DNA from: Thiothrix sp.
Lineage (GTDB): Bacteria > Pseudomonadota > Gammaproteobacteria > Thiotrichales > Thiotrichaceae
Assembly (NCBI RefSeq): GCF_028714775.1
Contig: NZ_JAQTLS010000017.1
Coordinates: forward strand, 19,216-83,215
Direction: 5' to 3'
Length of the DNA stretch: 64,000 bases
Part shown: piece after piece, positions 1 through 63,884 of the stretch
Position numbering within the stretch: position 1 is the first letter of the stretch
How the letters are laid out: every line of letters starts with the position of its first letter
Program-made: the position numbers and the translations under genes
The notes under the pieces: model-generated
Database searches by the model: none
The model's input: the letters and a program-made list of their open reading frames with translations, nothing else
Told to the model about the DNA's origin: nothing

Positions 1-165
1 GCCTAATTTCTACCCAACTGGTTCCTAGGGAACCACCTGCCTAATTTCTACCCAACTGGTTCCTAGGGAACCACCTGCCTAATTTCTACCCAACTGGTTC
101 CTAGGGAACCACCTGCCTAATTTCTACCCAACTGGTTCCTAGGGAACCACCTGCCTAATTTCTAC
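1..165. repeat. 38-bp tandem direct repeats, four full copies plus a partial
   Basis: Four identical 38-bp units start at 1, 39, 77 and 115, and a fifth begins at 153 but breaks off after 13 bases. Each unit contains an inverted repeat with arms TGGTTCC and GGAACCA around a TAG centre. The array may continue beyond the left edge of the window. It lies just downstream of a replication-initiator-like gene of an integrated element, so iterons, a partition site or nested hairpin terminators for the minus-strand operon are all possible. The units abut with no unique spacers, which argues against a CRISPR array. Confidence 0.9.
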
Positions 166-209: not shown

Positions 210-1622
210 TCAGTGCAATACCCGCCCCTGCATTTGTATCTGCACCTGCTTCAGTTCCGTGTAGCGCTGACTCAGTCCTTTCCACAGTTCCTCAGCCTCC
301 AGCGCTGCCCCAGCCAAACGGCTGTCCGCTGCTGCCAACTGCTTCATACGTTTGGCTTCTGCGCTGGCATTGGACAATTGGCACGCGAGTGCTTTCACTG
401 CGCGGTCAACCGTCTCTGGCGTTTGTGGCGGGGTATCGGGGTTATCCGGTGGGGTAGGTGCGATGGGTGCAATGGTTGGTACAGGGTTCAGCTTGCCAAC
501 CACCACCAGTTCGCAGAGCTTGCGGGTGTAGGCCAGAATGTTAGAAGTGAACGGTTGGGATTTGCCATTGGCAACGGATGACAATTTGGCTGCCAGCGCA
601 TCCAGTACGGGTTGGTGGTGTTGCTGGGGGATTGTCCCCAGTTGCAACCTGACCACTCCTTTGTCGTTGCGGGTCAGGTTGGTAGGCCATGTCAGTCCAG
701 TAACTGTACTGCCCCCTACCTCCGTAGTTACTACAGGGTAGGTAGTAGTATTTTCTTCTTTCTTTAAATACTTACTACTACGCGGTACAGTAACTGTACT
801 CACCCCCCCGGTACAGTTACTGTACCCACCCCCCTGATTTCCGCGATTTTCGGCAGGTTCACCACTGGGTACACCGGGTACAGTAACTGTACTTAGTGTT
901 TCTTGGGTGTTTCCCACTAGGATTCCCGCTTTCAAGTAACATCTATCAGCGATTTCCATGATGCTCTCAGCGCTCAAAGCAAAGAATGGGCCGACTGGAT
1001 TTTCACCGTTTGCCGTCAGGGCGGCACTCTCCATTGCTTGGATGCGGCGCGGAATTGGCATTTCCAGCCGGGTGATGTCCTCACCCGCCCGCAATTGCGC
1101 CCGTATATCTACCAACACCCGATCTGCAATGGCGATGGCACGGCGGTGGGGGGTGTGCTTGCCGTCAGCACTCCCTTCCAGCCAGTCGATATAGTGGTCA
1201 TCCAATTCCAAGGTTTCCGCCAATTGCAGCGGTTCGTCATGTAAGGCGTAAATGTTGCCCCTGACCCGCCCATTGGCATCACGTAGCCTTGCCTTGCAGA
1301 CGGTCAGCCAACGGGTGGAACGCAAGATGGATATGCTGCGGGCAATGGTGGCTTTAGAGCCGACATTGCAACGTAACATCAACTCCCTGTAACTGGGAAA
1401 GGCAGTGATGGAATCACCGCTGGCTGCTGCCAGCTTGACCGCTGCCCATACGTTGCGGTCTACAGGTTCCAGTACAGGGTCTTCAAACAGCAGGCGCGGG
1501 AACACCAATTGCGGGTTTCCCAAGAATAGCAACCCCTCAACCGATGGTTTGCCGTCCCGGTCTAGCAGGGTGGAACTGCTGCGTTCCACCATCTGTTGCA
1601 GATAAGCCTGCATCCCTTGCAT
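210..1622 (-). CDS. STY4528-family ICE replication-initiator-like protein
   Basis: A 470-residue protein and the last gene of the minus-strand parA-parB operon. The N-terminal half (about residues 30-200) looks like the conserved part of the STY4528-type pathogenicity-island replication proteins found in PFGI-1/SPI-7-like elements. The region around residues 240-310 is low complexity, with repeated STVTVP segments encoded by palindromic DNA repeats. The C-terminus (about 400-470) is predicted to be helical. The gene follows the DUF2857 gene by 6 bp, a pairing usual in this ICE family. Family assignment rests on gene order and overall sequence character; a direct role in replication is inferred. 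Confidence 0.65.
   Translation of the reverse strand: MQGMQAYLQQMVERSSSTLLDRDGKPSVEGLLFLGNPQLVFPRLLFEDPVLEPVDRNVWAAVKLAAASGDSITAFPSYRELMLRCNVGSKATIARSISILRSTRWLTVCKARLRDANGRVRGNIYALHDEPLQLAETLELDDHYIDWLEGSADGKHTPHRRAIAIADRVLVDIRAQLRAGEDITRLEMPIPRRIQAMESAALTANGENPVGPFFALSAESIMEIADRCYLKAGILVGNTQETLSTVTVPGVPSGEPAENRGNQGGGYSNCTGGVSTVTVPRSSKYLKKEENTTTYPVVTTEVGGSTVTGLTWPTNLTRNDKGVVRLQLGTIPQQHHQPVLDALAAKLSSVANGKSQPFTSNILAYTRKLCELVVVGKLNPVPTIAPIAPTPPDNPDTPPQTPETVDRAVKALACQLSNASAEAKRMKQLAAADSRLAGAALEAEELWKGLSQRYTELKQVQIQMQGRVLH
695..892. repeat. Four 15-bp palindromes plus AT-rich tract inside the initiator gene (candidate origin)
   Basis: The palindrome GTACAGTWACTGTAC occurs at 785-799, 811-825 and 878-892, and with one mismatch at 695-709. 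Between the first two copies, at about 735-780, is a tract rich in A and T, unlike the GC-rich surroundings. In the encoded protein the copies give repeated STVTVP-like segments in a low-complexity linker. Iterons plus an AT-rich tract inside an initiator gene is the arrangement of the lambda origin in gene O. The repeats are visible directly; the origin function is inference. Confidence 0.55.
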
Positions 1623-1628
1623 CGGCGG

Positions 1629-2234
1629 CTACCCCTTGGCCTTACGCTTGGCAGTGCCGCGCTGTTGGATGGCGTGCTGCCAATCCTGCACCAACCCCCA
1701 CAGTACCCGGTAGGGTTGCCCGCTGGTTTGGTGCAAATGCAGGAAACCTTCAACAGTGACTGGCTTGCCGATCATTTCCCATTCCCGGTACAGGTTGGCA
1801 GCACCAAGCTCATCCATCGGTGGGCTGGTATTGGCAGTGCCGTCCATGCCCAATGCTTTGCGGATGTCGCTAAACGTCTGGCTGCTGATGCCCAACAGTG
1901 TCTTGAGCATGGATAATGATGCACCACCTTGGATAAGCTGCCGTACCAGTGCACCCTGCCCTGTTTCAGCCTCCCATGCCTCCTGTTCTGCCAACACTAG
2001 CCGCTCAAAGGCTATTGGGTTGATGTTCACTTGGAAACAGTAGTCCAGTTGTTTGAGTGCCGAAACTTTCAGTAATTCTTTTATTTTGTTGTAGATACGG
2101 TCTTGTAGGGGGTGGGGCAAACCGCCCAGCCGTTGCCGTTGGGCAGTATCCAACCGCTTCTGGGTGACATCCAAGACAGCCGCCAACACTTGGCGGATGG
2201 CGGCGGTATCCCCAGTATCCACCTCAGTGTTCAT
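1629..2234 (-). CDS. DUF2857 family ICE protein
   Basis: A 201-residue protein. The start chosen is the ATG at 2234, which overlaps the parB stop as ATGA, a sign of translational coupling; an upstream in-frame start would run further into parB. The middle of the protein (a region with LPHPLQDRIYNKIKELL and a helix-turn-helix-like stretch near SLSMLKTLLGISSQTFSDIRK) matches the DUF2857 family, which occurs between ParB and STY4528-type genes in integrated conjugative elements. Biochemical role unknown; DNA binding in element maintenance is plausible from the helix-turn-helix-like segment. Confidence 0.7.
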   Translation of the reverse strand: MNTEVDTGDTAAIRQVLAAVLDVTQKRLDTAQRQRLGGLPHPLQDRIYNKIKELLKVSALKQLDYCFQVNINPIAFERLVLAEQEAWEAETGQGALVRQLIQGGASLSMLKTLLGISSQTFSDIRKALGMDGTANTSPPMDELGAANLYREWEMIGKPVTVEGFLHLHQTSGQPYRVLWGLVQDWQHAIQQRGTAKRKAKG

Positions 2235-3979
2235 GCGATAAGCTCCCATGTACTGGCATTACCTGTTTCTTTGCTGTGTCCCAGTACGGCAGCAATGATG
2301 CTGTTGGTGTTGCGGATCAGTTCAAATGCCCATTCGAGTTGTTTGTCGGGTAGTTTTTGCCACCAGCCCCAACCCCGGAACTTGGGATGGAGGATCGGAT
2401 GGACTTTTTGCAGTATGGCGGGATTGCGCAACACGCTATCCGCTGGGACGTGTTGCTCCAGCAGTTCAGTCGGGCAACTGCTCCTCGGTGCATGGTCATC
2501 AACGAAGGTGGCACTGACCTCAACTAGGAACCACCAGAGGTTGGCTGCGTGCATTAGCACTAAGTTGGCTTCATGCTTTTCTTCATTGCTATATTTTTCG
2601 TTGTCTGCACCATTCAGGCGTTCCCACAGTGGTGCTGTGTATTCTGGGCTGAACACGTCATGGAGAATGAAGCCGTAGCCAACGTTCAGTTGGCTAATGG
2701 ACTGGCTCCCCTGTGGCACGTAGCCATCCGCCAATTGACAGGCAAGCTGGTAGTTGCGCTCCCGCAACCTGCCAACCTTGTCCATCCAACGCCCATTCCC
2801 CTCAACCACCACTTCTTTCCGCTGCGGCGCGTGGGGCATCCATTCCTCAAGTTCATTATCATCGTCAAGGTTGCTGCCCCACGGCATATTGTCCCCACCA
2901 CCTTCGATACGGATTCCGCCATCATCGGCAGGTTCGGGGGCTTGGGTGGCGGCTGGCTTGCCTGATGTCCCACCCCTATCCAACAAACTGTACTGGTCTA
3001 ACGGCGCATAGGCGGGTTCTGGCTGCGGGGCAAAGGTATGTGCTGGTGCGGGGGCTGGTTCTGGTTCAGGGGTTGGCTCTGGCAATTTCAGTTCCTTGCC
3101 ATCCAGCGCCAGCTTGAAGCTGGCCTGCACGGCGTCACGGTCTGTACCTTGTGGCAGTGCCGCCAATACCCGCAGCCGTACCGCCGCTTCGGCAATCTCG
3201 TATGTCCACGACTCGCTGTCCCCGCCAGACAATGCTGGGGCAAATACTGTGTCGCGGAACTGCTGTTCAATGCCATGACGATTGCCATGATTGCCGTGGA
3301 AACGCCAAACCGCCAAAGCGGCTTTTTCAAGTTTCTGCAACCGCTCAATTTGGAGTTTCCCTGCCCCAGACTTCAATGCTGTTGGGATGAACGCATTTAG
3401 CTTTGCCGCATAATCCAACTTAACAATCATGCCGTGGCTAATGGGAAAACCACGTTCCTTGAGAGCGGCTTCCAACTTCCGCTGTGACAGCACTTCCCCC
3501 AACTCTGCCTCCAACCTTGTTTTGGCATCCTGTACTGCCAATGCCCTATCAATAAATGTCATCCCGCCCCTCAGGTCATTTTCCCGCAGGTGCGCAATCA
3601 GCGCGTCGGTGTCGGAAACGAAGGGATGGAACTCACAGCGGACTTTTAGGAACTGTTGGTCTTTGGTTTCCTCCCACAGTTCTTTCAATGCCCGCAAGCG
3701 GGTGTTGCCACCCTTATAGATAATGTAGTGGCCTACCGGGTCATCGGGTCTGCGGCTGATTGGCAGCGGGTTATCCAAGCCAGTGTCCCGGATGGATTCC
3801 TTGATTTCTGCGTATTTCTCATTGGGGGAACGCCGGGGGTTCCCAGTAAAAAATGAAATCCGGTCAACATCTACCACCATCGTCGTGACCTGTATCGGGT
3901 CGCCGGGTGGCGGGATGTTTCCGGGTTTGCCGAAATGCCCTGCGAACAAGCTGCTTTTCTTTTTGGCTTCCTCTGTCAT
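2231..3979 (-). CDS. parB: ParB-family partition protein of an integrated element
   Basis: A 582-residue ParB-like protein. Residues about 35-130 carry the ParB/Spo0J N-terminal fold, with NPRRSPNEKYAEIKESI, the phosphate-binding-like segment YIIYKGGNTRLRAL and a following helical DNA-binding region. The C-terminal half is long, with a proline/glutamate-rich linker (about 300-370). This length and layout fit the PFGI-1-class ICE ParB family rather than chromosomal ParB of about 300 residues. Its start overlaps the previous small gene and its stop overlaps the DUF2857 start. It probably acts with ParA in element stability. Confidence 0.8.
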   Translation of the reverse strand: MTEEAKKKSSLFAGHFGKPGNIPPPGDPIQVTTMVVDVDRISFFTGNPRRSPNEKYAEIKESIRDTGLDNPLPISRRPDDPVGHYIIYKGGNTRLRALKELWEETKDQQFLKVRCEFHPFVSDTDALIAHLRENDLRGGMTFIDRALAVQDAKTRLEAELGEVLSQRKLEAALKERGFPISHGMIVKLDYAAKLNAFIPTALKSGAGKLQIERLQKLEKAALAVWRFHGNHGNRHGIEQQFRDTVFAPALSGGDSESWTYEIAEAAVRLRVLAALPQGTDRDAVQASFKLALDGKELKLPEPTPEPEPAPAPAHTFAPQPEPAYAPLDQYSLLDRGGTSGKPAATQAPEPADDGGIRIEGGGDNMPWGSNLDDDNELEEWMPHAPQRKEVVVEGNGRWMDKVGRLRERNYQLACQLADGYVPQGSQSISQLNVGYGFILHDVFSPEYTAPLWERLNGADNEKYSNEEKHEANLVLMHAANLWWFLVEVSATFVDDHAPRSSCPTELLEQHVPADSVLRNPAILQKVHPILHPKFRGWGWWQKLPDKQLEWAFELIRNTNSIIAAVLGHSKETGNASTWELIA

Positions 3980-4825: not shown

Positions 4826-5090
4826 GGGATTCCCCTAACGATTGCTGTAACTGCTTAAGTTCCGCTAATGCCGCTTCCATTTTGGCTATTTCCCACGCCA
4901 ATGCCTTAGCTGCTGCGTTCTCTGGTGTATTCCCCCAACCAGTGCAGCAATTCTTCTTTGTATTGATTTCGGCACACCATTCGCGGGTATCTGGCTTACC
5001 ACAGAACCCACGCACATCCATCAAGAAGGCTTCAACAACAGTACCGCCCAAGTCGATTTGCTTCAGCCCATAAATAGGAATTCTGCTCAT
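4809..5090 (-). CDS. Hypothetical protein immediately downstream of parA
   Basis: A 93-residue protein whose ATG at 5090 overlaps the parA stop. It has four cysteines (one in RGFCGK, one in EWCAE and a CC pair near KKNCC) and a C-terminal helix rich in alanine, leucine and glutamine. No family recognised. A small structured protein with a possible metal site or disulfide is all that can be said; its function in the element is unknown. Confidence 0.55.
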   Translation of the reverse strand: MSRIPIYGLKQIDLGGTVVEAFLMDVRGFCGKPDTREWCAEINTKKNCCTGWGNTPENAAAKALAWEIAKMEAALAELKQLQQSLGESHDTSH

Positions 5091-5929
5091 GCTTTCCCCT
5101 CCTCTGCGCCGGGTTCATGCAGCAAACCCAGTTCAGCAATAACTGCCATCAGCGACAGCTTTGCCATAGGGTGTTTAGCTAGGGTATGGACTGGCACTTG
5201 TTGGGTCGCAGCCTCCCGCCATGCGACCAAAGAGGGGATCATTGCATCCATAATGGTGATGTCTAGGTTAGGGCAACCGTCATCCTGTTGGATGGCAGCA
5301 GCTAACTCACCCGTCATGGCTCCACGCATCTCTTTGACCACATTTGCAGCATCGCGGGTACGGTCAACCCGGTATAACACCCCATATAATGGCGGGGTTG
5401 GTAAGCCTGCATTGCAGAATGACGTGCGTAGCCGCATCAGCATACCAACCAGCCCACGCAAAAATTCGCGTGCTGACATGGTTTCAGTGGGGATGGGGGA
5501 CAGCAGCAGGTCTGCCGCGAAGATGGCTGCATCCTGCAAGGGGCCAACCGCACCTTGGGTGTCGATCAGGATGAAATCATAGGAAGGTCTGAGTTTGTTT
5601 AACCGATAACTGATGTACCTCCAGCCATCCGCCGTTTTTAATATCCAGCCCTGTAGCTGCCCTTCCGGGTCATCGGAATAGATCAGGTCACAACCAGCAG
5701 ATGTGGTGTTGATGGTGTTGACCAAATCCCCCGCAGTCAGTAACCTCACTAACCCATGACCAGTATCCTTGGTCAGTTCGTAGTAGCTGGATAAGGCGGG
5801 TTGTACATCAGCATCCACGAGAAGGACACGGTTGCCAAGGCTGGCAAGGAAACCGCCAAGATTGGCAGTCAATGTGGTTTTTCCGACCCCACCCTTGGTG
5901 GAACAGATGGTTATTATTACTTGTTTCAT
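5087..5929 (-). CDS. parA: ParA/Soj-type partition ATPase of the ICE
   Basis: A 280-residue ATPase with the deviant Walker A motif KGGVGKTT at about residues 11-18, a LLVDADVQ segment (A') near 35-43 and a Walker B-like FILIDTQG near 118-125. It is the first gene of the eight-gene minus-strand operon and the gene closest to the attachment site, the usual position of soj/parA in PFGI-1-type elements. A 20-bp near-palindrome directly upstream could be an autoregulatory operator. Confidence 0.85.
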   Translation of the reverse strand: MKQVIITICSTKGGVGKTTLTANLGGFLASLGNRVLLVDADVQPALSSYYELTKDTGHGLVRLLTAGDLVNTINTTSAGCDLIYSDDPEGQLQGWILKTADGWRYISYRLNKLRPSYDFILIDTQGAVGPLQDAAIFAADLLLSPIPTETMSAREFLRGLVGMLMRLRTSFCNAGLPTPPLYGVLYRVDRTRDAANVVKEMRGAMTGELAAAIQQDDGCPNLDITIMDAMIPSLVAWREAATQQVPVHTLAKHPMAKLSLMAVIAELGLLHEPGAEEGKA

Positions 5930-5985: not shown

Positions 5986-6041
5986 AGAGCAACTGACTTG
6001 TAATCAGTAGGTCCCGAGTTCGACTCTTGGTGCCGGCACCA
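5986..6041 (+). other. Attachment site: 3' half of tRNA-Thr(TGT), ICE/chromosome junction
   Basis: The stretch reads as the 3' part of a threonine tRNA. It has the anticodon arm ACTGA / CTTGTAA / TCAGT with anticodon TGT, a T-arm CCGAG / CTTGG around TTCGACT, and the acceptor strand TGCCGGC followed by A and CCA. The matching 5' acceptor strand, D-arm and promoter are absent upstream, where the parA control region lies instead. This is the repeat left when an element integrates into the 3' end of a tRNA gene; the intact tRNA should be at the other end of the ICE. Confidence 0.85.
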
Positions 6042-6048
6042 AATCTAA

Positions 6049-6079
6049 AAGCCTAAACATTCGTGTTTGGGCTTTTTTT
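6049..6079 (+). terminator. Rho-independent terminator of the original tRNA-Thr locus
   Basis: An 11-bp stem (AAGCCTAAACA with TGTTTGGGCTT, one G-T pair) around a TTCG tetraloop is followed by seven Ts. It lies 8 bases after the tRNA CCA end, as expected for the chromosomal tRNA gene that the element interrupted. Confidence 0.85.
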
Positions 6080-7969: not shown

Positions 7970-8835
7970 CCGCCTACCTCGGTCTCGCTGTCGGCGATGC
8001 TTTGGGCGCAACCGTCGAGTTCATGACCCCGGCAGAAATCCGTCACGAGTACGACACGCACAAAAACATGATCGGCGGCGGCTGGCTGAAACTCAAAGCG
8101 GGCGAAATTACCGACGACACCGAAATGAGCCTTGCTTTGGGCAACGCCATCCTTGCTGCGGGCAAAGTCGAACCCACCAGCGTGGCGGAAGCTTTCAGCC
8201 AATGGATGCGCGGTAAACCCAAAGACATCGGCAACACCGTGCGGCGCGGCATCGTGCAATTCCGCCGCACCCGGCAAACGGCAATGCCAGAAAGTGAACA
8301 CGACGCAGGCAATGGCGCGTGTATGCGCTGCCTGCCCGTTGCCCTTTCCACCCTGCATTCGTCATGGACAGACGTGCAAAGCGCCTCGCGCCTACAAGCC
8401 CACACCACGCACAACAACCTCGTGTCGGATGCGGGCACGGAATGCATCCTGCAAATGGTGCAAGCCGCAATCTTGGGCGAGCCGCTGGCAGAACTGGAAT
8501 TACTGGCGCACGAACTGGTCGCGCGTTACCCCGTGTTTGAATACCGCCAACGCCGCCGCGACAACCCCAGCGGCTACATCGTCGATACCCTGCAAGCGGT
8601 GTTTCAGGCACTGTTTTCCACTAACAGTTTTGAAACGGCACTGGTGGAAGTGGTCAATCGGGGCGGCGATGCTGATACCACGGGCGCAATCCTCGGCATG
8701 GTTGCCGGAGCACTGTACGGTCTGGAAAACATCCCCACCCGCTGGCTGGATCGGCTCGACGACAACATCCGCACCCAATGCACCCAACAGGCACGCGCCC
8801 TTTACCAATTGGCACAACAAGGACACCTCCAATGA
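7954..8835 (+). CDS. draG: DraG, ADP-ribosyl-[dinitrogenase reductase] hydrolase
   Basis: A 293-residue ADP-ribosylglycohydrolase. The N-terminus AAYLGLAVGDALGATVEF and the TDDTEM segment near residue 50, with GGDADTTGAI near 230, carry the acidic residues that bind the two Mn ions. DraG removes ADP-ribose from NifH and reactivates it when nitrogen fixation can resume. The start is a TTG inside the end of nifQ, supported by GGAGG 7 bases upstream. It lies about 12 kb from draT, whereas the two usually form one operon. Confidence 0.9.
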   Translation: MQRAIAAYLGLAVGDALGATVEFMTPAEIRHEYDTHKNMIGGGWLKLKAGEITDDTEMSLALGNAILAAGKVEPTSVAEAFSQWMRGKPKDIGNTVRRGIVQFRRTRQTAMPESEHDAGNGACMRCLPVALSTLHSSWTDVQSASRLQAHTTHNNLVSDAGTECILQMVQAAILGEPLAELELLAHELVARYPVFEYRQRRRDNPSGYIVDTLQAVFQALFSTNSFETALVEVVNRGGDADTTGAILGMVAGALYGLENIPTRWLDRLDDNIRTQCTQQARALYQLAQQGHLQ

Positions 8836-9326
8836 GACTTTCCCGCAAAGACGAACATTCAATCACCGCGATGCTGTCGCTGGCGGCACACGACCGTTAC
8901 ACCGCCCCCATCAGCCTCAGCGAATTGTCGGAGGATTTGGGCATTTCCACCTCTTACCTCGAACACCTGTTCAGCGGGCTGCGCAAACACGGTTTGGTGG
9001 AGGGCTTGCGCGGCGTCGGCGGCGGCTATCGGCTGACACGTCCGGCAGCGCAGATCAGCATTGCCGACATCCTTTACGCCACCGATGCGCTGAGCGATGA
9101 GAGCGGAAATATCGCGCCAGATGCCCCGGATACACGCGGACTGGAAGCGGCACAAGCATGGGCGGAATTGAGCCGCCGTATCCGCGACTTCCTCGGCGGG
9201 CTGACGCTGGCAGATTTCACTACCCGCAAACCCGATAACCGCTGGAAACACCGTGGCGATTCGGTCAGTGGCTACATTGCCAGCATGTTCCCGCCACACG
9301 CCATCCGCAGCGGAATGTCGGCTTGA
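8832..9326 (+). CDS. Rrf2/IscR-like transcriptional regulator lacking Fe-S ligand cysteines
   Basis: A 164-residue regulator with an IscR-type winged helix: MRLSRKDEHSITAML at the start, a recognition region DLGISTSYLEHLFSGLRK and the wing LRGVGGGYRL. In IscR three cysteines at about 90-105 bind a 2Fe-2S cluster; here the corresponding stretch (ATDALSDESGNIAPDAPD) has none. The gene overlaps draG as ATGA and precedes iscA-nifU-nifS, so a role in Fe-S or nif control is likely, but the signal it senses is unclear. The C-terminus extends about 30 residues past the usual end. Confidence 0.85.
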   Translation: MRLSRKDEHSITAMLSLAAHDRYTAPISLSELSEDLGISTSYLEHLFSGLRKHGLVEGLRGVGGGYRLTRPAAQISIADILYATDALSDESGNIAPDAPDTRGLEAAQAWAELSRRIRDFLGGLTLADFTTRKPDNRWKHRGDSVSGYIASMFPPHAIRSGMSA

Positions 9327-9364
9327 TGACAACATCGCCGGGATAGCCTGTGCCAAATCCGACA
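9316..9364. promoter_or_regulatory. Two NifA upstream activator sites for iscA-nifU-nifS
   Basis: Exact TGT-N10-ACA motifs at 9316-9331 (overlapping the rrf2 stop codon) and 9349-9364; the second ends 51 bp before the -24 element. Confidence 0.75.
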
Positions 9365-9415
9365 TACGCGCACAACTTTTCAATAAAACCTTTAACAATC
9401 AATAACAAATAAACT

Positions 9416-9430
9416 TGGCACAGGGTTTGC
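9416..9430 (+). promoter_or_regulatory. Sigma-54 promoter of iscA-nifU-nifS
   Basis: TGGCAC-N5-TTGC, a perfect consensus with correct GG/GC spacing, 38 bases upstream of the iscA start. Confidence 0.9.
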
Positions 9431-9468
9431 AATATTTCCCTTAACACGCATACAACGGGAGATAACGC

Positions 9469-9792
9469 ATGATCACACTGACAGAAAAAGCCCAGAAAGC
9501 CTTGGGGCGTTTCATCAAAAATTCTGAAACCCCAGTCGCTGGGTTGCGCATTGGCGTATCTGGCGGTGGCTGTTCGGGCCTGCAATATTCCATGAACCTC
9601 GTGGAAGCCAAAGCCGCCGACGACCTTGAAGTCAACATCGGCAACCTGTCGCTGTTCATCGACCCAGCGAGCGCCCCCAAACTCGACGGCCTGACCGTGG
9701 ACTTCATCGACACCATGACCGAAAGCGGTTTCCGCTTCGACAACCCTAATGCCACTAACAGTTGCGGCTGCGGCAAATCATTCTCAGCCTAA
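9469..9792 (+). CDS. iscA: Nif-specific IscA/HesB Fe-S carrier
   Basis: A 107-residue A-type Fe-S carrier. It has the family cysteines: one in GGGCSGLQY near residue 36 and the pair in NSCGCGKSF near the C-terminus. It probably receives or delivers Fe-S clusters for nitrogenase maturation. First gene of the sigma-54-driven operon iscA-nifU-nifS, 30 bp upstream of nifU, matching the nif-iscA position in Azotobacter. Confidence 0.92.
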   Translation: MITLTEKAQKALGRFIKNSETPVAGLRIGVSGGGCSGLQYSMNLVEAKAADDLEVNIGNLSLFIDPASAPKLDGLTVDFIDTMTESGFRFDNPNATNSCGCGKSFSA

Positions 9793-9822
9793 GCGCATAA
9801 CCCGGAACAGGAGAGCCAAGCC

Positions 9823-10710
9823 ATGTGGGATTATTCCGAAAAGGTGCAAGACCATTTCTTCAACCCGCGCAATGCCGGGGCAGCGGCAGGCGCAAATGCC
9901 GTGGGTGACGTAGGTTCACTCAGTTGCGGCGACGCGCTGCGCCTGACCCTCAAGGTCAACCCCGAAACGGAAGTGATTGAGGCGGCGGGTTTCCAGACTT
10001 TCGGTTGCGGTTCAGCGGTTGCTTCCAGTTCCGCACTGACCGAAATGATCAAAGGCATGACGGTTGATCAGGCGTTGAAAATTTCCAACCAAGACATTGC
10101 CGATTACTTGGATGGCTTGCCACCCGAAAAGATGCACTGCTCGGTAATGGGTCGTGAAGCCTTGCAAGCCGCCGTTGCCAACTTCCGGGGCGTGGAATGG
10201 AAAGACGACCACGAAGAAGGTGCATTAATCTGCAAATGTTTCGCGGTCGATGCGGTGTTGATCGAAGAAACCATTCGCGCCAACAACCTCAGCAGCGTGC
10301 AGGAAGTCACTTTCTACACAAAAGCTGGTGGTGGCTGTTCCGCCTGTTTTGAAGGCATTGAAAACATCCTCAACAAAGTGTTGGCAGAACGCGCCGAAAC
10401 TGAAGCGGCAGCACCTCCGCCACCGCCCGAACCCGTCAAGCCTGCCAAAGCACCGCTGACCAACCTGCAACGGATGCGCCGCATCGAACACACCTTGGAA
10501 GCGATCCGCCCGCAACTGCAAGCCGACCGGGGCGACATCGAACTGGTAGAAGTCGATTTCGACAAGAAAATCGCCTTCGTTAACCTGAGTGGCGCGTGTT
10601 CTGGTTGCCAAATGGCTGCGGCTACTTTGGGTGGCGTGCAACAGCGTGTCATGGAAGATTTGGGTGAATTCATCCGTGTGCTGCCTGCCACTGAAATGGG
10701 CAAGTTTTAA
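9823..10710 (+). CDS. nifU: NifU, Fe-S cluster assembly scaffold
   Basis: A 295-residue three-domain NifU. The IscU-like N-domain (1-125) has ligand cysteines in SLSCGD, FGCGSA and MHCSVM. The central BFD-type 2Fe-2S domain has CKCF and GGCSACF. A proline-rich linker (about 195-212) leads to the C-terminal Nfu domain with CSGC near 265. It builds clusters with sulfur from NifS for NifH and for NifB/NifEN substrates. A GGAG site precedes the ATG, and nifS follows after 11 bp. Confidence 0.95.
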
Positions 10711-63244: not shown

Positions 63245-63884
63245 TCATAACGCCTGCCGGAACGTCAAATTGAAGCGTTCCCCCGGCAACAACGGATGTT
63301 GCGCTGCCTTGAGTGGCGCAATGCCGTGGAACACCAACCGCGCTTCCCCGCCCCACACCACCACATCGCCGTGCAGCAACGGTACTTTCACCGCCTTGTC
63401 ACTGCGCTGCAATCCGCCCCACAAAAACGTCGCAGGCAAACCCAACGACACCGACACAATCGGCGCAGTCAGGTCGCGTTCGTCCCGATCCTGATGCAGT
63501 GCCATTTTCGCGCCCACCTGATAGCGGTTGATCAGGCAAGCATCCGGCTGGAACGCGGGGAAACCCGCCACCAATGCTGCGGCTTGCGCCAAGCTGCGGA
63601 AATTCGCTGGCAGCGCAGGCCACGCTTGCCCACTCAACGGGTCGGTGGTGCTGTAGCGGTAGCCTTTGCGGTCGGTGATCCAGCCCGCAGTGCCGCAATT
63701 GGTCATCGCCACCGACATCGTATAGCCGCCGGGCGTTTGCATGTGCCGGAACGGGGCTTGCGCAGCAATCGCGTGGATGCCTGCCAGCAAGCTGTCGGTA
63801 TGGGCGGCGGCGTATTGGCGCAATACCAGCGCACCGGGGCTTAAGGGTTCAGTTGGGCGGGGTATTGAAGAGGTTGAGGTTCAT
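63245..63884 (-). pseudogene. alkB: AlkB DNA/RNA demethylase with apparent frameshift near its start
   Basis: From about 63848 down to 63245 the frame encodes nearly all of an AlkB dioxygenase: MQTPGGYTMSVAMTNCGTAGW, QPDACLINRYQVGAKMALHQDRDERDL (HxD iron ligands), VWGGEARLVFHGI (distal His) and ERFNLTFRQ. The natural beginning (MNLNLFNTPPN) sits at the ATG at 63884 in another frame, which stops at 63849-63851. One extra base there would explain it. A sequencing error, a true inactivating frameshift or a downstream non-ATG start are all possible. Confidence 0.7.

Follow-up and report, generated by a model that had tools for sequence, protein, structure and literature searches.

ICEs of the PFGI-1, pKLC102 and SPI-7 class carry virulence, resistance and catabolic genes, and the locus described here raises the question of where in such an element replication starts. 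Members of the pKLC102 group, PAPI-1 and ICEHin1056 included, are reported to replicate (PMC4489591). For the present locus, in a 64,000-nucleotide stretch of a Thiothrix sp. genome (contig NZ_JAQTLS010000017.1, positions 19,216 to 83,215; hereafter the window), an earlier sequence-only reading had suggested a lambda-like origin embedded in the initiator gene of the element.

The Replication Module and Its Genomic Context

The start of the window is an integrated element of the PFGI-1/pKLC102/SPI-7 class. Its minus strand carries, from the element end inwards, parA, small ORFs, parB, a DUF2857 gene, a gene of the STY4528 family and a 38-bp tandem array, beyond which lie a PFL_4669-family gene, an SSB gene and topB (SSB at C17:17201-17578; topB at 8517-10625). 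This ordered module of parA, TIGR03764 parB, DUF2857, STY4528, PFL_4669, ssb and topB is that of the PFGI-1 class, as are the tRNA gene as integration site and the position of parA at the element end. The ParA-type ATPase, the last gene of the module before that end (5087-5929, minus strand), matches AAA_31 at 81.6 bits, the ParB of PFGI-1-type ICEs (2231-3979, minus strand) matches TIGR03764 at 232 bits, and the DUF2857 gene (1629-2249, minus strand) matches Pfam PF11198 at 45.3 bits. A dnaB helicase gene was absent from the four small ORFs between parB and parA, to which that scan was confined. The element ends in a 68-bp copy of the tRNA-Thr(TGT) 3' end and flank (5986-6053, plus strand). 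The complete tRNA-Thr(TGT) gene is located on contig C20 (L112), and directly past its 3' end lies a gene for a tyrosine recombinase (PF00589, 77.9 bits); the contigs are unjoined, and the C20 locus is probably the other end of the element.

The putative replication initiator gene of the STY4528 family occupies positions 210-1622 on the minus strand and encodes 470 amino acids. Its product scores 148.4 bits against the NCBIfam model STY4528_fam (NF040582), above the curated cut-off of 130 bits, and the palindromes and A+T-rich tract discussed below do lie inside this ORF, as originally noticed.

The same genome holds a second replication module, running from parB to topB, on contig C36 (L008, L012). 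Its STY4528 gene is 84% identical to that of the window and has three palindromic sites only, one with an arm mismatch and one with a different centre, as well as a degenerate downstream array; this module may represent a decaying or competing element. An imperfect 143-bp tandem repeat of 3.8 copies was also observed elsewhere on the contig of locus L009 (11634-12180).

Palindromic Sites Inside the STY4528-Family Gene

Three perfect copies and one single-mismatch copy of the 15-bp palindrome GTACAGTWACTGTAC lie inside the ORF, at the positions first given for them. The first putative iteron in gene order (GTACAGTAACTGTAC, 878-892) is followed by the second (811-825) and the third (785-799), all of them perfect palindromes, and the fourth (GTCCAGTAACTGTAC, one mismatch, 695-709) is situated across the A+T-rich tract from the other three. 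When up to three mismatches are allowed, GTACAGTWACTGTAC has five matches in the window, the fifth with 3 mismatches at 63371, against 0.33 expected, and none of 100 shuffles reached five. In the whole 4.3-Mb host genome, the 15-mer with at most one mismatch occurs at seven places, four in the window gene and three in the STY4528 gene of C36. This distribution bears on the idea that the sites act as an operator or transcriptional roadblock by which the operon, or the STY4528 gene itself, is tuned. Many initiators also autoregulate their genes, but all seven places lie more than 700 bp past the STY4528 start codon and none is found at a promoter of the module, and we consider a regulatory role of this kind improbable.

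The sequence-only reading had described the palindromes as encoding a repeated STVTVP, which is correct for two of them; the others encode YSNCTG, in a different frame (second iteron), and STVTGL. It had also asked whether the palindromes are conserved in related ICEs beyond codon needs. In the window gene itself they are in excess of what synonymous codon use would supply: the palindrome family scores 3.75, and the highest of 100 synonymous-codon shuffles scored 2.00. Judging from the sequence, the constraint lies on the DNA and not on the peptide, for the palindromes fall in more than one frame and surpass these shuffles.

Close relatives point the same way. Six of 16 sampled genomes of the genus carry the STY4528 gene, and GTACAGNNNCTGTAC has 28 forward matches in the 16, 25 inside STY4528 genes and 3 elsewhere, as compared with 2 matches for its reversed control pattern. 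At the DNA level, each of the seven genes of the genus lineage has kept three to five palindromes, which are spread over two or three frames.

Distribution of the Sites Among Relatives

Homologues of the STY4528 gene were gathered from a wider range of genomes. A scan with the single protein found no relatives, an alignment-based scan found 44 loci, and a further scan found one locus on a viral contig. The final set began with 100 loci with an ORF match, from which 10 duplicates were removed and 3 low-scoring genes were dropped before clustering, and the remaining 87 genes gave 62 representatives of clusters at 85% identity. Of these, 41 form clade A, that of the window (profile score over 240), and 21 form clade B. 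One genome (L049/L058) apparently has a second STY4528-like ORF in tandem after the first.

A palindrome family exceeded 100 synonymous shuffles at p<=0.02 (the floor of p being 0.01) in 36 of the 62 representatives, and in three of these (L020, L079, and L080) the family is the downstream array, translated as part of the C terminus. The test was not significant in the other 26, which comprise 20 of the 41 clade-A and 6 of the 21 clade-B genes. Ten of these 26, from Thiogranum/Sedimenticola-like members of clade A, have degenerate half-sites by eye, and a relaxed scan of these ten was significant in one.

Across lineages, the sites can be written as a 17-bp palindrome in which T3, C5, G13, and A15 are fixed, six or more of the eight pairs match, and other positions vary, with AGTNC(N7)GNACT as the commonest form. 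This palindrome has 148 sites in the 62 genes, as compared with 29.2 expected from synonymous shuffles, and 138 of the 148 fall at 40-75% of gene length; the excess is significant in 34 genes (p<=0.05), and 37 genes contain at least two sites. The form was framed on 22 genes after inspection of the data, and the remaining 40 served as a non-blind split, with 78 sites against 15.8 expected and 17 of 40 genes at p<=0.05, figures to be read with the caveat that all 62 genes had been seen beforehand and that the 40 include many relatives of the 22. The reference elements follow the same arrangement, since all four GTTCGGNNNCCGAAC sites of pKLC102 (103.5 kb) and all four AGTTCCNNNNNGGAACT sites of ICEHin1056 (59.4 kb) lie in the respective STY4528 gene. 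These two genes are among many homologues of other lineages with mid-gene palindromes of their own, although 22 of the 62 representatives pass neither the palindrome-family nor the 17-bp test.

The frames in which the sites are read also address whether selection on the peptide, a low-complexity linker with STVTVP repeats, could have produced the palindromes by accident of codon use. In L018, L019, and L085 the sites share one frame, and a single frame is used by 9 of the 37 genes with at least two mid-gene sites, which such an accident would allow. However, 28 of the 37 use more than one frame and 10 of these use three; in L013-L016 and pKLC102 the site is found in each of the three frames, and in pKLC102 it is read as EFGIRT, SSDAEL, and VRMPNS. 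In both the window lineage and pKLC102, the same DNA word yields unrelated peptides in two or three frames, and synonymous shuffles fail to yield such families. Peptide selection is already contradicted for the window gene, and as a general account we find it scarcely credible. Taken together, the genomic comparisons establish the location of the sites, their recurrence in many relatives, their selection as DNA and, in the genomes searched, their near-exclusive placement in the STY4528 gene.

The A+T-Rich Tract and Its Flanking Triplets

The A+T-rich tract, placed near 735-780 by the sequence-only reading, was located at 741-779 (minus strand) and reads, on the gene strand, (AGT)2, a 24-nt core and (ACN)3. 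We propose it as the unwinding region, and its triplet arrangement is found clade-wide: in clade A the tract takes the form (NGT)2-10, an A+T core (median 15 nt, 94% A+T) and (ACN)3-6. With a strict pattern, this triplet block is present in 35 of 41 clade-A genes against 1.4-1.5 expected from synonymous shuffles, and with a relaxed pattern in 39 of 41 against 6.8 expected, both patterns having been defined post hoc, after inspection of the data; neither pattern found it in any of the 21 clade-B genes.

The block encodes stretches such as SSSS-YINK-TTTT, and its codons are unusual. Among 38 clade-A genes (L037, L082, and L097 failed the rule of this test), serine is written AGT at 171 of 220 positions near the tract and at 145 of 1102 elsewhere, and threonine is written ACT or ACA at 146 of 167 positions near the tract and at 305 of 998 elsewhere. 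When any NGT is allowed in the left block, it comprises 151 AGT, 23 TGT, 19 GGT, and 9 CGT triplets; in the non-AGT triplets the residue differs and GT is kept, which is partly due to how the pattern was written. The triplet block looks to be kept as DNA. It lies in one and the same frame wherever it was found, and frame changes are therefore unusable as a test here.

A hairpin or cruciform as the pure role of the tract was considered and is not favoured. The window tract barely beats shuffles (z -1.9). Folding was strong in L020 (z -5.3) and in L104 (z -4.9, for a stretch that includes an iteron); in L021 the folded stretch was without its left arm, and in L025 there is no pairing between the AGT triplets on the left and the ACA triplets on the right. 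In clade B, eight genes were inspected by eye for other inverted repeats round an A+T core. L104 and L045 had clear examples, L033, L107, and L108 had suggestive ones, and none was evident in L105, L049, and L052. L104, which is ICEHin1056, and L045 have the inverted repeat CAGTACAGTAC...GTACTGTACTG round the A+T core in place of the triplet block.

The DnaA-trio offers a parallel, in which trinucleotide repeats with the consensus 3'-GAT-5' adjoin initiator sites in a region that melts (PMC8287927). The window likewise has trinucleotide repeats beside putative initiator sites at a putative melting region. Unlike the DnaA-trio as characterized in that account, its NGT and ACN triplets form two inverted arrays that enclose an A+T core, the trio varies at its middle base, and the DnaA box pattern TTWTNCACA, the one pattern searched, is absent from the gene. 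This pattern occurs mid-gene in 9 of the 62 representatives, a count for which no background was computed, and a perfect DnaA box, TTATCCACA, is found mid-gene in three (L037, L053, and L110), that of L037 lying just before the tract.

The triplet block is the strangest part of the proposed origin, and how it might act is a matter of proposal. Tentatively, and with more doubt than confidence, we suggest that (NGT)n, an A+T core and (ACN)n could constitute a new origin-opening element, an ICE counterpart of the DnaA-trio inside the gene of the initiator, on which an ICE-encoded O-like initiator or DnaA might form filaments or from which helicase might be loaded outward on both strands.

The STY4528 Protein as Candidate Initiator

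The window protein consists of an N-terminal HTH domain, a variable linker and a C-terminal part. Its own profile matches are weak, with HTH_36 at 17.2 bits, below the cut-off of 25, and a PHROG "replication initiation O-like" profile at E 0.011. Across 32 aligned members of the family, HTH_36 matches the N-terminal domain in 22 (best 4e-11), the initiation family phrog_8102 in 16 (best 2.8e-9), and the O-like families phrog_8540, phrog_678, and phrog_391 in 14, 10, and 7, respectively (best 3.9e-6, for phrog_391); a DnaD-like loader PHROG was matched in five. No solved structure matched the window protein by sequence (best E 0.73). RepA_N (PF06970) was not among the two Pfam families found for it at E<=1, nor among the best 25 of 31 Pfam families listed for the 32 members. 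The matches of the N-terminal domain support an initiator role for the STY4528 protein, and the lambda-like reading thus gains some ground from the O-like families across the STY4528 family and little from the window protein itself.

In lambda gene O, iterons and an A+T-rich region lie inside the initiator gene, between the DNA-binding and helicase-loader parts. The window gene shares the placement of its putative iterons inside the linker and, by sequence, an A+T-rich region adjoining them; in lambda this region is on one side of the iterons, whereas the window sites flank the tract on both sides.

The origin could also lie where we propose it and be bound by another protein of the element, such as the DUF2857 or the STY4534-family "ICE replication protein", both of which are also encoded in the module of related elements. 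In pKLC102, ICEHin1056, and this genome, however, the sites lie inside the STY4528 gene and not in theirs, and the O-like and HTH matches were found in STY4528, the PHROG scan having covered STY4528 proteins alone; we think a different binder unlikely. The STY4528 protein is the likely initiator and, we infer, binds the palindromes itself.

Covariation between the recognition helix and the iteron type, apparent by eye, was examined in 37 genes and set aside. Site type tracks whole-domain ancestry (r 0.57), and the chosen helix columns add nothing over ancestry in a partial Mantel test (partial r 0.02, p 0.35); among 122 windows, theirs came 68th. The highest values (about 0.30), noticed post hoc, came from 8-column windows in the HTH just before the chosen columns.

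The Downstream Array

Just after the gene, at 1-165, lies a tandem array of 4.3 copies of a 38-bp unit, 100% alike and containing the palindrome GGTTCCCTAGGAACC. A further copy is found at about 19080-19115 of C17, past a 100-N assembly gap that falls within the array; identical 38-bp copies thus occupy C17:19080-19380 and window positions 1-165, split by the gap, and the copy count is a minimum. Among 57 genes with enough flank, a palindrome family just past the stop codon exceeded 20 simple shuffles in 32, some of which are scattered pairs and not arrays, and did not exceed them in 25. Regular arrays have units of 36-57 bp (57 bp in pKLC102, 47 bp in L015, and 38 bp in the window), and the array sequence differs from that of the intragenic sites where both are clear. 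In L017, L020, L079, and L080 the palindromic array extends into the 3' end of the gene, giving C-terminal repeats like GVSAGNT and DGSAI.

Such downstream arrays resemble sopC-type centromeres, and the 38-bp array would be a second element. It might complete the proposed oriV as its second half, or it might be a centromere; it is more likely centromere-like than a melting site. The intragenic palindromes could themselves be the centromere, bound by the TIGR03764 ParB of the element for partition, with replication starting elsewhere, for example at the downstream array: ParB sites are typically palindromic repeats, and the parB gene lies two genes upstream of the STY4528 gene. Against this, the regular palindromic array of 36-57 bp found in several elements is the better sopC-like fit, and partition would need no melting-type A+T core between its sites. 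We therefore hold a centromere inside the gene to be unlikely.

GC skew was tried as a locator of the origin and set aside. In pKLC102 the cumulative GC skew does not turn at the STY4528 gene, which counts against an origin there. In pROTS050421_D it has its maximum at 51 kb, near the STY4528 gene at 56-57 kb, which says little because a separate replication protein is annotated on that plasmid, at 77.5 kb.

A Proposed Origin Within the Putative Initiator Gene

Comparative evidence supports the interpretation given in the sequence-only reading, and we conclude that the palindromes are probably initiator-binding iterons, and the tract the unwinding region, of an origin of the element lying within the linker-coding part of the STY4528 gene, with the STY4528 protein as its likely initiator. 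The best reading of the locus is that the intragenic palindromes and tract make up one half of an oriV that would be bound by the product of the gene itself, in the manner of lambda O or pSK41 RepA. After excision, in the circular form, the N-terminal HTH domain of the STY4528 protein would bind the 17-bp palindromes, of which three lie to one side of the tract and one to the other. The resulting complex would melt the A+T-rich tract, and the C-terminal part of the protein would help to load the replicative helicase. Several results count against this reading: 22 of the 62 representatives fail both site tests, pKLC102 gives no skew signal at the gene, site type and the chosen helix columns do not covary once ancestry is taken into account, and the window protein has weak profile matches and no structural match by sequence.

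An origin at this place has been proposed before. For PFGI-1, a two-part oriV was put forward in silico, one half being A+T-rich and bearing four palindromes and the other consisting of four 46-bp repeats that overlap the gap between PFL_4668 and PFL_4669, and the element was stated to encode no Rep protein (Mavrodi et al., 2009, PMC2647930). The view of the sequence-only reading that no origin of such form had been described in these ICEs must be amended in light of this proposal, which does not, in its available text, place the oriV in an initiator gene. PFGI-1 is like the window in having palindromes in an A+T-rich half beside a repeat array, at the same place; it differs in that the proposal concerns a single element, with no statement in that text that the first half lies inside an initiator gene (PMC2647930), and in that its palindrome is of the TTCGGAATCCGAA type, as compared with GTACAGTWACTGTAC. 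For Haemophilus islands, mention has been made of a putative oriV whose A+T-rich region contains repeats, some of them iteron-like (Juhas et al., 2007). No publication placing an ICE origin in the STY4528 gene was found in a literature search of titles and abstract openings. The place of the origin had thus been seen before; what seems to be new is its link to an initiator, together with the shared iteron and the triplet element.

Plasmids provide further comparisons. In the RepA_N plasmid pSK41, four Rep boxes lie centrally in the rep gene, in the part coding for the linker that joins the N-terminal winged-helix domain of RepA to its C-terminal domain, and the Gram-positive plasmid pPR9, with a working replicon, has an initiator with the N-terminal domain pfam13730 (HTH_36) (PMC5703833). 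As in pSK41, the intragenic sites of the window are in the linker-coding part between N-terminal and C-terminal domains; pSK41, however, is a Gram-positive plasmid, its RepA_N domain was not found in the window protein, and the account in its accessible sections reports no triplet element (PMC5703833). In repABC plasmids, the oriV lies inside repC and needs an A+T-rich stretch, where silent mutations abolish replication (PMC3155836). The window would share with them an oriV within the initiator gene and an A+T-rich stretch, whereas the portions of that source at hand report no iterons in repC (PMC3155836), and their initiator is presumably unrelated.

If this reading is true, replication of these elements would be initiated by the STY4528 protein, at a core origin that takes up a few hundred bases within its gene; the minimal replicon would become clonable, and elements might be grouped by iteron type into possible incompatibility groups. 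The locus would also provide a clean case of double constraint on one sequence, which would serve both as peptide and as origin. With many related elements of similar layout, the question of where replication starts in this class would then have a directly testable answer.
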